From assembly GCA_003554965.1 (NCBI GenBank), contig PWHR01000078.1, positions 1 to 64,000 on the forward strand: a stretch of DNA of 64,000 nt. The letters are read 5' to 3'. Shown piece by piece: positions 13,291 through 52,729 of this stretch; within the stretch, counting starts at the first letter, position 1, and each line of letters begins with the position of its first letter. The stretch comes from Thermoplasmata archaeon. Its GTDB lineage: Archaea > Thermoplasmatota > Thermoplasmata > Halarchaeoplasmatales > Halarchaeoplasmataceae. Position numbers and translations under genes: made by a program. The notes under the pieces were generated by a model. That model was not told the origin of the DNA. It was given only the letters and a program-made list of their open reading frames with translations, and searched no databases.

Positions 13291-13492
13291 AATAATCATA
13301 CGAGGATATAATTTGAAATACTTATTACAGTATTACATATAAGTTAACGTCTTACATATGAAGCTTTAGGTGACCATTTTACAAACGATGTCTAGAAACT
13401 CATAACCAAATGTCGGCCGGAAGATTTATTTTACAGATATCGATAGGGCCTTACCGAGACAATAGAAAAGACTTTCCACCTAGTCATACGCC

Positions 13493-13561
13493 CAATTTTG
13501 TGTAACAAAATTGCGGAGGAATCAAATAGATTCCTCCTTTCACTCGAGCAGAGCTCTCGTG
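13493..13561. repeat. three consecutive hairpins with 5-base loops
   Basis: Hairpin A is CAATTTTG-TGTAA-CAAAATTG (13493-13513), B is GGAGGAATC-AAATA-GATTCCTCC (13515-13537), and C is CACTCGAG-CAGAG-CTCTCGTG with two inner mismatches (13541-13561). All have five-base loops, and A and B are separated by one base. B shares its GAGGAAT stem core with hairpins inside the IS element at 51 kb. The chain runs straight into the partial tRNA copy at 13564. There is no reading frame. It could be a structured RNA or a nest of small palindromic elements. Confidence 0.65.
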
Positions 13562-13563
13562 AT

Positions 13564-13643
13564 GCCACCGTAGCTTAGGCCGGCAGTCCGTCGGAAAGGA
13601 TTTCCAACTTACTGCCGACTAACCTACTCGGCTCGTTCCACTC
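13564..13643 (+). repeat. partial copy of the tRNA-Thr 5' end plus hairpin spacer
   Basis: The 23 bases at 13564-13586 are identical to the first 23 bases of the complete tRNA-Thr at 13644. The copy then diverges into 57 bases that cannot finish a tRNA: no anticodon arm, no T-arm. The insert contains GGAAA-GGA-TTTCC (13593-13605) nested in CGGCAGT (13581-13587) with ACTGCCG (13611-13617). It is therefore a 23-base direct repeat flanking a hairpin segment. Integration usually copies the 3' part of a tRNA, so a 5' copy is unusual. Confidence 0.75.
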
Positions 13644-13717
13644 GCCACCGTAGCTTAGGCCGGCAGAGCGGCTGACTTGTAATCAGCAGGTCGTGGGTTC
13701 AAATCCCACCGGTGGCT
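13644..13717 (+). tRNA. tRNA-Thr (UGU)
   Basis: GCCACCG pairs with CGGTGGC. The anticodon arm GCTGA-CTTGTAA-TCAGC gives TGT, and the T-arm is GTGGG-TTCAAAT-CCCAC. The discriminator base is T and CCA is not encoded. It is the intact member of the duplicated pair described just upstream. Confidence 0.93.
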
Positions 13718-50336: not shown

Positions 50337-50790
50337 TGTAGTATCCCGAAATCATTTATTAAAGATAAAATATCATCTATAATGAAGAAACTTGAAGATC
50401 GGTAGATCAAGTGGATCATCAAGATACTTGAGGAAGGAAACAGGACCCAGAAAGAGATAGCTGATCTAAAGAATGTATCTCAAGGAAGGATCAGTCAATT
50501 ATGGAACGAATACAAAGAAACAGGAAAAATACCGAAGTTGAGGAACCTAGTAGACCAAGAGAACAACTATCTAAAGAAGAAAAAAGGTGATCAAAGATAG
50601 CTATGAGAAATACAGAACTTGTGCAGAATACCTTGAGGACATCATTCAGAAAGAATATGGAATGGAAATCAGCCACAATAAGATCCAAAACTATATTAGG
50701 AGATTAGATATGGCTTCTGAAACCAAGAAGAAACAAGAAAAACGCAAATGGGTTCGTTGGGAAAGAAATCATTCTATGAGCCTTTGGCAT

Positions 50791-50838
50791 CTAGAGTAAC
50801 AGAGTTCCTCATCTCACTCGGAAAGTATTCCTCGTAAT
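50791..50838 (+). repeat. insert 1 in transposase gene (48 bases)
   Basis: The coding sense jumps from SLWH (ending 50790) to TDYKWF (starting 50839), so these 48 bases are extra. They contain CGGAA-AGTA-TTCC-T-CG and a weaker first stem, resembling the second hairpin of inserts 3 and 4 (GGAA...TTCCTC). The end points are fixed by the flanking codons. Confidence 0.6.
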
Positions 50839-50935
50839 ACAGATTACAAATGGTTTACTGATCTAAATAAGTGGATGATAGCCTATGAAGACGATGCTTC
50901 AAGGATGATGATGAGTTATAATATGGTAGATGAAG

Positions 50936-50975
50936 ATTGTAGGGATTTCATCCCATAATCCTCGGTAACCTGCGG
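50936..50975 (+). repeat. insert 2 in transposase gene (about 40 bases)
   Basis: The coding sense jumps from MVDE to TTENAIKTLDEG. The extra bases fold into GGGAT-TTC-ATCCC (50942-50954) and a second imperfect stem TCCTCGG-TAA-CCTGCGGA. It has the double-hairpin layout of inserts 3 and 4 but a different sequence. The borders are uncertain by a few bases. Confidence 0.55.
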
Positions 50976-51078
50976 AAACTACTGAAAATGCTATTAAAAC
51001 ACTTGATGAGGGCATCAAGCAGTGGGGTAAGCCAAGAGAGATACTAACAGACTAAGGAACTCAATTTTATGCATCTAC

Positions 51079-51131
51079 TGGAATTTGTATGCAAATTCCA
51101 TCGACATGAGGAATTTAGAATAAATTCCTCA
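51079..51131 (+). repeat. double-hairpin element, copy A (insert 3)
   Basis: Hairpin 1 is TGGAATTTG-TATG-CAAATTCCA (51079-51100), the spacer is TCGACA (51101-51106), and hairpin 2 is TGAGGAATTT-AGAAT-AAATTCCTCA (51107-51131). Both stems are perfect. The element sits just after the DDE-core block GTQFYA, whose reading resumes with KEKGLSEFEEYL. Confidence 0.85.
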
Positions 51132-51249
51132 GTGAGTGGTGGTGACAAGAAAGAGAAAGGACTATCTGAATTTGAAGAATATCTTCCTTGTCAAGATATT
51201 CATCAGATCGTTGGAAGAGTTAGCCATCCGCAAACTAATGGCAATCTAC

Positions 51250-51303
51250 TGGAATTTCCGAGAGAAATTCCATCGACATGAGGAATTCTTGGTGAATTCC
51301 TCA
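51250..51303 (+). repeat. double-hairpin element, copy B (insert 4)
   Basis: Hairpin 1 is TGGAATTTC-CGAGA-GAAATTCCA (51250-51272), the spacer TCGACA is identical (51273-51278), and hairpin 2 is TGAGGAATTC-TTGGT-GAATTCCTCA (51279-51303). Compared with copy A the loops differ, but the last pair of each stem changes on both sides (G-C to C-G, T-A to C-G), so pairing is kept. It interrupts the transposase just after SHPQTNG. Confidence 0.85.
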
Positions 51304-51520
51304 GTGGATCGAACGACTTTACAGAACATTAGAAGAAAAACTTCATTTGTTTGATTATGACATGGATGAAGTTGTAGAATGGTATAACGAGCTTAAACCT
51401 CATGGAAGTTTGGTTTTTCGAGGACATTTTGATACTCCTGAAAGTTGGTTCTGGAAGTGATATCATGACCAAGGAAAGAAAAAGCAAAAAAGAAAATATT
51501 AAAAATTTCAGGATACTACA

Positions 51521-51579: not shown

Positions 51580-52729
51580 ATGAATATCAGATTATTTTAT
51601 AAAAGTGAAGATAACTATTTAATCATCACATTCATATACATACTTTTCATATCTTCAATCAGGACCATAGTCAAAATCAATATTCAGAGTCCACCAGAAT
51701 ATTTGTATCCATTGTCAATACTGATCATCGAATTCTTGGTCATCTCGATTTTATTCCTTATCTCTTTATATCTTTTAACATCGAGTTTATCCCGATACTA
51801 TACCAATATTATCCCACGAGTAGTTTTTTATCTATATTGATTCTGATTCTCCTATCATTGCTTACAATTTTATTTTCACTATTAACATACGTGTTGGCGA
51901 GAGAAAAGTTAATAGCTCTATTTAAAAGCATTAAACCTTTTAGAACACTTCATTTTATTGGTTTGACATTGGTCGGTTTTATCGTAGCTTACAGTTATGA
52001 AGTAGATATTGTTCTATTAGATATCTCAATTTTCTTCCTGTTATTTTCATGATCTTTACATGCCAGTTCTCCAACATGGTAAGTGATTTTTTGACATTGA
52101 TACTGATGAAATTGTACATCCTCATAGGCCTTTGATAAGGAGTATGGTTTACCCTAAAATCTTCAAGCTGATCGGAATCATTTGTGCTATGTTTTCACTT
52201 ATACTTTCATTACTATTTAGTTTAGAATTGTTTTTTCTGAATCTTGGTTTTGTAATTGCAGGCGCAGTTTATTCTATCCCTCCTATCAGATTGAAAAACA
52301 GAATATTTGGTCACATCTAGTGTTAGACATGCTAGTGTAACTGCTTTCCTTTATGGAGTATATGGGACATTTGGATTTAAAGAAGTTGAACTCTTTCTAG
52401 CAGGAGTCTATTCCTGAGTTCCATTCCTTCCAGATATCTTCTCTTTTACCTTATTGATTTTCGTTGTGTTTTCTTTATCCCCTTTCATCAATGCGATCTA
52501 TGACTTTGAGGGAGACAAAAAGGCAGGTGTCAGAAATATTTACACCGTTCTAGGCTTTGAAAAAGGAAAGAAAATAGTCTCATATCTGATAATTATACTA
52601 TTCTTGACTCCATTATTGATCTTTCAGGGAACAACCGATATGCTCCAGATACTTCCTGCTTCTATCATTTCCTCCTTCATATTCTACAAATTTGAAATTA
52701 TAAGTTCGTTCTTGGACTTTAATTTCTAA
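51580..52729 (+). pseudogene. UbiA-family prenyltransferase, broken
   Basis: Reading across frames gives about 290 residues of a UbiA-type membrane protein after a short hydrophobic leader frame (51580-51840). The first Asp-rich motif reads NMVSDFFDIDTDEIVHPHRP (52074-52133) and the second INAIYDFEGDKKAGVRNIYT (about 52490-52550). Breaks are a frameshift near 52045, one in the T-run at 52087-52092, one near 52317, and an in-frame TGA at 52415-52417. Two of the shifts fall in homopolymers, so sequencing error cannot be excluded, but the TGA argues for real decay. It starts 60 bases after the IS element. Confidence 0.75.

Follow-up and report, generated by a model that had tools for sequence, protein, structure and literature searches.

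The double-hairpin element described here is a structure-defined, mobile, non-autonomous unit, two copies of which lie in a degenerate transposase gene of the window, the 64,000-nucleotide stretch of DNA that was analysed. Judged from sequence, it would be a short non-autonomous mobile DNA element special to one halophilic family of the Thermoplasmatota, a reading to which we assign a probability of about 0.75. The element family is large and apparently undescribed before; the first-pass annotation of this DNA knew of no archaeal description, and none was found in the open-access literature searched, which is not proof of absence.

Two copies in a degenerate transposase gene

Both copies were present as the first-pass annotation had described them, with common stems, a TCGACA spacer, and differing loops (Table 1). 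The hairpins of element 1 read TGGAATTTG tatg CAAATTCCA and TGAGGAATTTA gaa TAAATTCCTCA, and those of element 2 read TGGAATTTC cgaga GAAATTCCA and TGAGGAATTC ttggt GAATTCCTCA. The copies differed in their loops and in the loop-proximal stem pairs, and stem changes were always on both sides, including the paired differences reported at the stem ends (G-C against C-G; T-A against C-G). Both elements folded far more strongly than shuffled sequences (DNA z of -7.9 and -5.8; 0 of 200 shuffles), and these four were the only tightly clustered GGAA/TTCC hairpins in the window.

Table 1. Positions of the two elements, their spacers, and the host gene in the window
Feature	Position	Strand	Description
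Double-hairpin element 1, 61 nt	51074..51134	+	TCTAC - hairpin 51079-51100 - TCGACA - hairpin 51107-51131 - GTG
Double-hairpin element 2, 62 nt	51245..51306	+	TCTAC - hairpin 51250-51272 - TCGACA - hairpin 51279-51303 - GTG
Element 1 spacer TCGACA between hairpins	51101..51106	+	TCGA fixed in nearly all family copies, then variable bases
Element 2 spacer TCGACA between hairpins	51273..51278	+	
Degenerate transposase gene, HTH_28 + rve integrase core	50382..51460	+	Host of both elements

The insert length of 53-54 bases proposed at first was corrected to 61 and 62 nt, since intact relatives of the transposase placed the ends at TCTAC and GTG. For element 1, the ends followed from the flank join TTT TAT GCA^AGT GGT (FYA^S) and the rule given by the empty sites; for element 2, they followed from the join GGC AA^G ATC GAA, which reads G-K-I-E. 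Conserved transposase motifs were indeed interrupted exactly, as had been claimed: besides FYA^S, the motif HPQTNGK^IER was split by element 2, and NGK-IEK ran uninterrupted in four intact relatives. An intact relative (L240) matched Pfam rve, rve_3, and HTH_28, and the host gene itself carried frameshifts and stops of its own besides the elements.

Several other features were observed in the surrounding DNA. Beside the dead IS, positions 51580-52729 resembled by eye a UbiA-type membrane prenyltransferase split over several frames, and this gene thus looks like a pseudogene. Three hairpins stood in a row at 13480-13567 (CAATTTTGT/ACAAAATTG, GGAGGAATC/GATTCCTCC, and CACTCGAGC/GCTCTCGTG), immediately before a second, partial copy of tRNA-Thr(TGT) that comprises its 5' half, with the full tRNA at 13644-13717; the second and third hairpin types recurred beside elements at other loci, such as G012:C57. 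Other small repeat families were seen around elements (L010, L022, L149, and others), namely CAAAGAC..CTATA-ending units and CTGACGG..TTCGT palindromes in G008/G010/G012.

Anatomy and covariation of the family

The 67 non-redundant copies shared one plan: TCTAC, hairpin 1, TCGA and usually two further bases, hairpin 2, and three closing bases. The unit measured about 51-71 nt, beginning at TCTAC and ending six bases past the last TTCC. Hairpin 1 mostly had 8-9 pairs and a loop of 3-5 bases. Its pairs 2-5 (GG/CC, AA/TT) were near-invariant among the 67 copies, and the unpaired TCTAC and TCGA were fixed as well. Pair 1 and pairs 6-9 varied on both sides, with most of the pair types and few broken pairs at 6-9; counts in the same set were TA 53, AT 11, and CG 1 at pair 1, TA 45 and AT 17 at pair 6, and TA 26, CG 17, and GC 10 at pair 8. 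Loop sequences were almost all distinct (53 of 67). An alignment of 43 copies had 98.2% paired cells and 35 two-sided changes, against 8.3 in shuffles. In line with the proposal that the folded form was selected or copied, two-sided changes maintained the stems.

Hairpin 2 mostly carried the same GGAA/TTCC core with covarying ends of its own. Tandem or nested units built arrays of 3-6 hairpins; for example, G008:C23 and G012:C76 shared one insertion site, at which G008 had two extra hairpins between hairpins 1 and 2. No match to the Rfam 15 covariance models was found at E<=0.5 for seven loci.

Distribution

Many further copies, whose absence would have spoken against the original reading, were found when the genome and its relatives were searched by DNA similarity, by pattern, and with a covariance model. 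A screen of 300 genomes of the class with the first-hairpin model yielded at least 77 matches (E<=1e-4), copy numbers per genome being minima. Every one of the 16 genomes from the host's archaeal family (relatives of Ca. Saliniplasma/Haladaptatiplasma; NCBI family Halarchaeoplasmataceae) contained matches, and the remaining 284 contained none. In an exact-pattern search of GTDB, most matches and, with two exceptions, every full array came from related MAGs, many of them from soda-lake or Great Salt Lake projects; the full arrays were in Candidatus Saliniplasma, Haladaptatiplasma, and other Thermoplasmata MAGs. The real pattern yielded 38 matches and the reversed-pattern control none. True arrays were also seen on contigs binned as 'Mollicutes' and 'Aenigmatarchaeota' (L070, L083) with sample names belonging to the series of these Thermoplasmata MAGs, and were either misbinned or transferred. 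GTDB matches in Clostridiaceae, Bacteroidia, Proteobacteria, Acidobacteria, Saprospiraceae, and Acinetobacter were lone and partial, without an array, and were taken as chance, as were two matches in IMG/VR, neither of which had a second hairpin.

Empty sites and movement

Comparison of genomes led us to infer that the elements are mobile. At the site filled in G012:C45, the intact transposases G006:C92, G007:C1, G005:C83, and G001:C46 read GGTAAGATCGA/GGAAAGATCGA; the intact relatives L240-L243, L253, and L254 read one or the other of these sequences. An intact relative of this IS containing the inserts as ordinary coding sequence had been named as an observation that would speak against the original reading; the relatives instead lacked the inserts and had exact empty sites. 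In the G012:C45 transposase, a site uninterrupted in relatives read GGTAA-(61 nt)-GATCGA, and element 2 of the window was inserted at the same codon; the empty and filled forms of this IS were compared as GGTAA^GATCGA in L240 and L159. For AbiEii, the empty form came from the intact gene G005:C70 (L270) and the filled form from G011 and G012 (L161/L200). In the paralogous repeats C68 (filled) and C46 (empty) of G010, a 54-nt sister-type unit sat exactly at the site vacant in the other copy.

At the compared empty sites, no bases were lost and no target-site duplication was found, apart from a single T at most, whose assignment is ambiguous. Precise removal of the element in silico gave complete ORFs for a 336-aa rve transposase, TnpB, HepT, a DUF234 ATPase, and AbiEii, and for the AAA/TPR gene a long ORF that was truncated where the analysed sequence stopped. 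The insertion target had an A at -2, before the element's leading T, in 61% of cases, and this was the sole enriched position. A fixed insertion site was considered and rejected; the pyrimidines at -10/-9 appeared largely due to preceding hairpins in arrays.

Two RHS genes from different genera (G005:C3, L176; G009:C26, L195) carried an element in frame at one shared codon; the two copies agreed at 59 of 60 bases, and their flanks were 57-77% identical right up to the element ends. Such a near-identical element in diverged flanks is not explained by simple vertical descent. Similarly, the elements of G011:C43 and G012:C44 were identical at 59 of 60 bases, with a diverged left flank and a right flank 86% identical. 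Possible explanations for these cases are repeated insertion into a favoured site and conversion confined to the element.

Interrupted genes

The 14 listed insertions in genes comprised 6 in sense and 8 in antisense orientation. No core gene was found among the recognisable interrupted genes, which were mobile, toxin-antitoxin, RHS, or accessory genes. In the RHS, DUF234, and AAA/TPR genes, the element kept the reading frame and contained no stop codon, and translation straight through it is therefore all that is needed. The AbiEii and transposase insertions were out of frame, as was the majority of coding insertions. Copies in frame and open made up 3 of 5 insertions in non-transposon genes, against 16% expected. 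The G012:C45 transposase had lost its catalytic middle, and transposase copies with several elements were themselves decayed. Because the window transposase is frameshifted and that of G012:C45 decayed, these copies are uninformative on gene function.

The window copies would be harmless, sitting in a dead transposase gene. In live genes, copies would persist if the gene were dispensable or if the insert were in frame and open, adding about 17-21 residues. Several elements (L165, L171, L211, L173, L083) lay in or close to the 3' end of a TnpB gene, the region that yields the guide RNAs of IS605 elements. Use of TAG as a sense codon, which would rescue HepT and TnpB, was rejected, because 12 of the window's 58 long ORFs terminate at TAG.

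Comparison with known systems

The closest known kinds were the double-hairpin elements of fungal mitochondria and the Rickettsia palindromic elements. The fungal elements, known from Allomyces (Paquin et al. 2000, as cited in PMC2800124 and PMC4478555), likewise consist of two adjacent hairpins of tens of bases, keep structure, and occur in many optional copies, optional at homologous sites without flanking duplication. The archaeal element resembles them in its unit, its size, and the absence of flanking duplications and so works like them. The archaeal elements differ in being chromosomal and in having fixed TCTAC/TCGA feet and a GGAA stem core; common descent is unsupported, there being no shared sequence known. 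The fungal likeness drawn in the first-pass annotation thus held for mobile double-hairpin elements. The ribosome-bypass reading was not supported, given the degenerate host transposase, the insertion in both orientations, and the dispensable or in-frame-readable genes, although AbiEii keeps that reading alive. Translational bypass elements (byps) are present in the mRNA yet left untranslated, and the genes that they interrupt stay functional. The byps of Magnusiomyces mitochondria (Lang 2014 and Nosek 2015, as summarised in PMC8211752) are, in that account, also short, mobile, hairpin-forming, and inserted exactly within coding sequence. The archaeal elements did not share their same-sense orientation, being often antisense, and were not seen in essential genes and mostly lay outside intact genes.

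Rickettsia palindromic elements, of about 150 bp, can sit in frame in coding genes and be translated (PMC10969869), as with the open insertions in RHS, DUF234, and AAA/TPR genes; the present elements differ in their 51-71 nt, their two hairpins, their mostly out-of-frame position in coding genes, and their lack of a CGTC tag. Yeast mitochondrial GC clusters (PMC4478555) show similar loop-concentrated changes and merging of clusters, but their AG target was absent here. A MITE of a DDE transposon was rejected on the lack of target-site duplication (at most one shared T), and an IS200/IS605-derived element on the lack of a fixed tetranucleotide at insertion, where only the A at -2 was found.

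Alternative readings

Chance palindromes or an assembly artefact, for which only the short length and the MAG origin speak, can be practically dismissed: the element recurs in MAGs obtained independently at several sites, its stems covary strongly, it is restricted to one lineage, and its empty sites are exact. Removal of the element from RNA or skipping by the ribosome, in the manner of introns or byps, would let interrupted genes yield normal protein and so enable spread. The insertion is exact, as with introns and byps, and a transposase (L197), a TnpB (L171), and a HepT (L163) were otherwise intact apart from the element. The AbiEii toxin gene of G011 and G012 holds a single inherited copy that is out of frame; its two versions, of 61 and 62 nt, are almost the same in sequence. 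Between the two genomes, dN was 0.057 and dS 0.296 over the 231 codons compared after the element. Among the polarised changes, the two interrupted branches had 26 replacement and 35 silent substitutions and the intact branch 28 and 32; without selection, a replacement-to-silent ratio of about 3:1 would be expected by our own estimate. The short first exon had 3 silent changes and 1 replacement. The element itself differed by one compensatory pair (CTAC/TCGA to CTGC/CCGA) and two loop changes, with no stem pair broken. By these substitution patterns, AbiEii is still under purifying selection although out of frame in two genera, which suggests that the gene can work despite the copy. Restart at an internal TTG, with about 30 residues lost, could also account for this. 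Against RNA removal or ribosome skipping, about half of the insertions were antisense, so the transcribed RNA would differ from the sense element; the genes hit included no core gene, in-frame open copies were over-represented where genes look alive, and transposases with several elements were decayed. Archaeal bulge-helix-bulge introns have an exon-intron helix with two 3-nt bulges. Upstream flanks here were without conservation beyond -2, and a fixed exon helix of that kind is therefore unlikely. Bypass or splicing was kept as a minority reading because of AbiEii and is, on balance, unlikely; an archaeal counterpart of byps, with RNA excision or ribosome skipping in at least some genes and AbiEii as best candidate, would be the first in Archaea and is rated marginally lower still.

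In REP sequences, the tag stands at the 5' foot of the hairpin. Palindromes of the REP/RAYT type, mobilised by a tyrosine (Y1) transposase, resemble the elements as short imperfect hairpins grouped in arrays without target duplication, and Y1 genes were found in all nine family genomes at least 90% complete. A REP carries GTAG or CGTC as a tag on one of its ends (PMC3733652), whereas the foot here is 5'-CTAC, of opposite polarity, and the second hairpin has no tag. Unlike REP sequences, the elements lie not only between genes but also within genes and within other mobile elements, and they have no associated RAYT; the hairpins do not flank Y1 genes, and in two such genes (G000:C68, G001:C110) an element lies within the domain or next to it. 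A REP/RAYT origin is improbable. Spread through RNA, by reverse insertion of the folded RNA and then reverse transcription, was suggested for the Allomyces elements because flanking duplications are absent (PMC2800124), a property shared here, and structure is likewise kept more than sequence. Reverse transcriptase (RVT_1) was not found in 15 of the 16 family genomes and was represented in the other by a fragment with a stop, making this route very improbable.

Mobilisation and significance

For a non-autonomous mobile DNA element, the form recognised would be the folded single strand, as suggested by fixed unpaired feet on a freely varying stem; proteins would contact it at the GGAA stem base and at the two unpaired feet, TCTAC and TCGA. 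Because no duplication accompanies insertion, a single-strand route is suggested, probably as single-stranded DNA and with an enzyme acting in trans, supplied by the host or by another mobile element. The best guess for this enzyme would be a transposase of the Y1/HUH type, although the target preference, limited to the A at -2, is unlike that of known Y1 elements. Y1 transposases occurred in 12 of the 16 family genomes, at 0-3 per genome, and none was found in the incomplete assembly of the copy-rich G012. The Y1 transposase ends examined in the family genomes were without these hairpins; a Y1 transposase as autonomous partner was rejected, as its ends do not match the elements.

Mobile hairpin elements without target duplication were previously known mainly from organelles. 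An archaeal lineage in which copies are numerous, empty sites exact, arrays nested, and stems hypervariable yet paired provides a prokaryotic system for finding and testing the mobilising enzyme, and the interrupted AbiEii allows a direct test of RNA excision or ribosomal bypass in Archaea.
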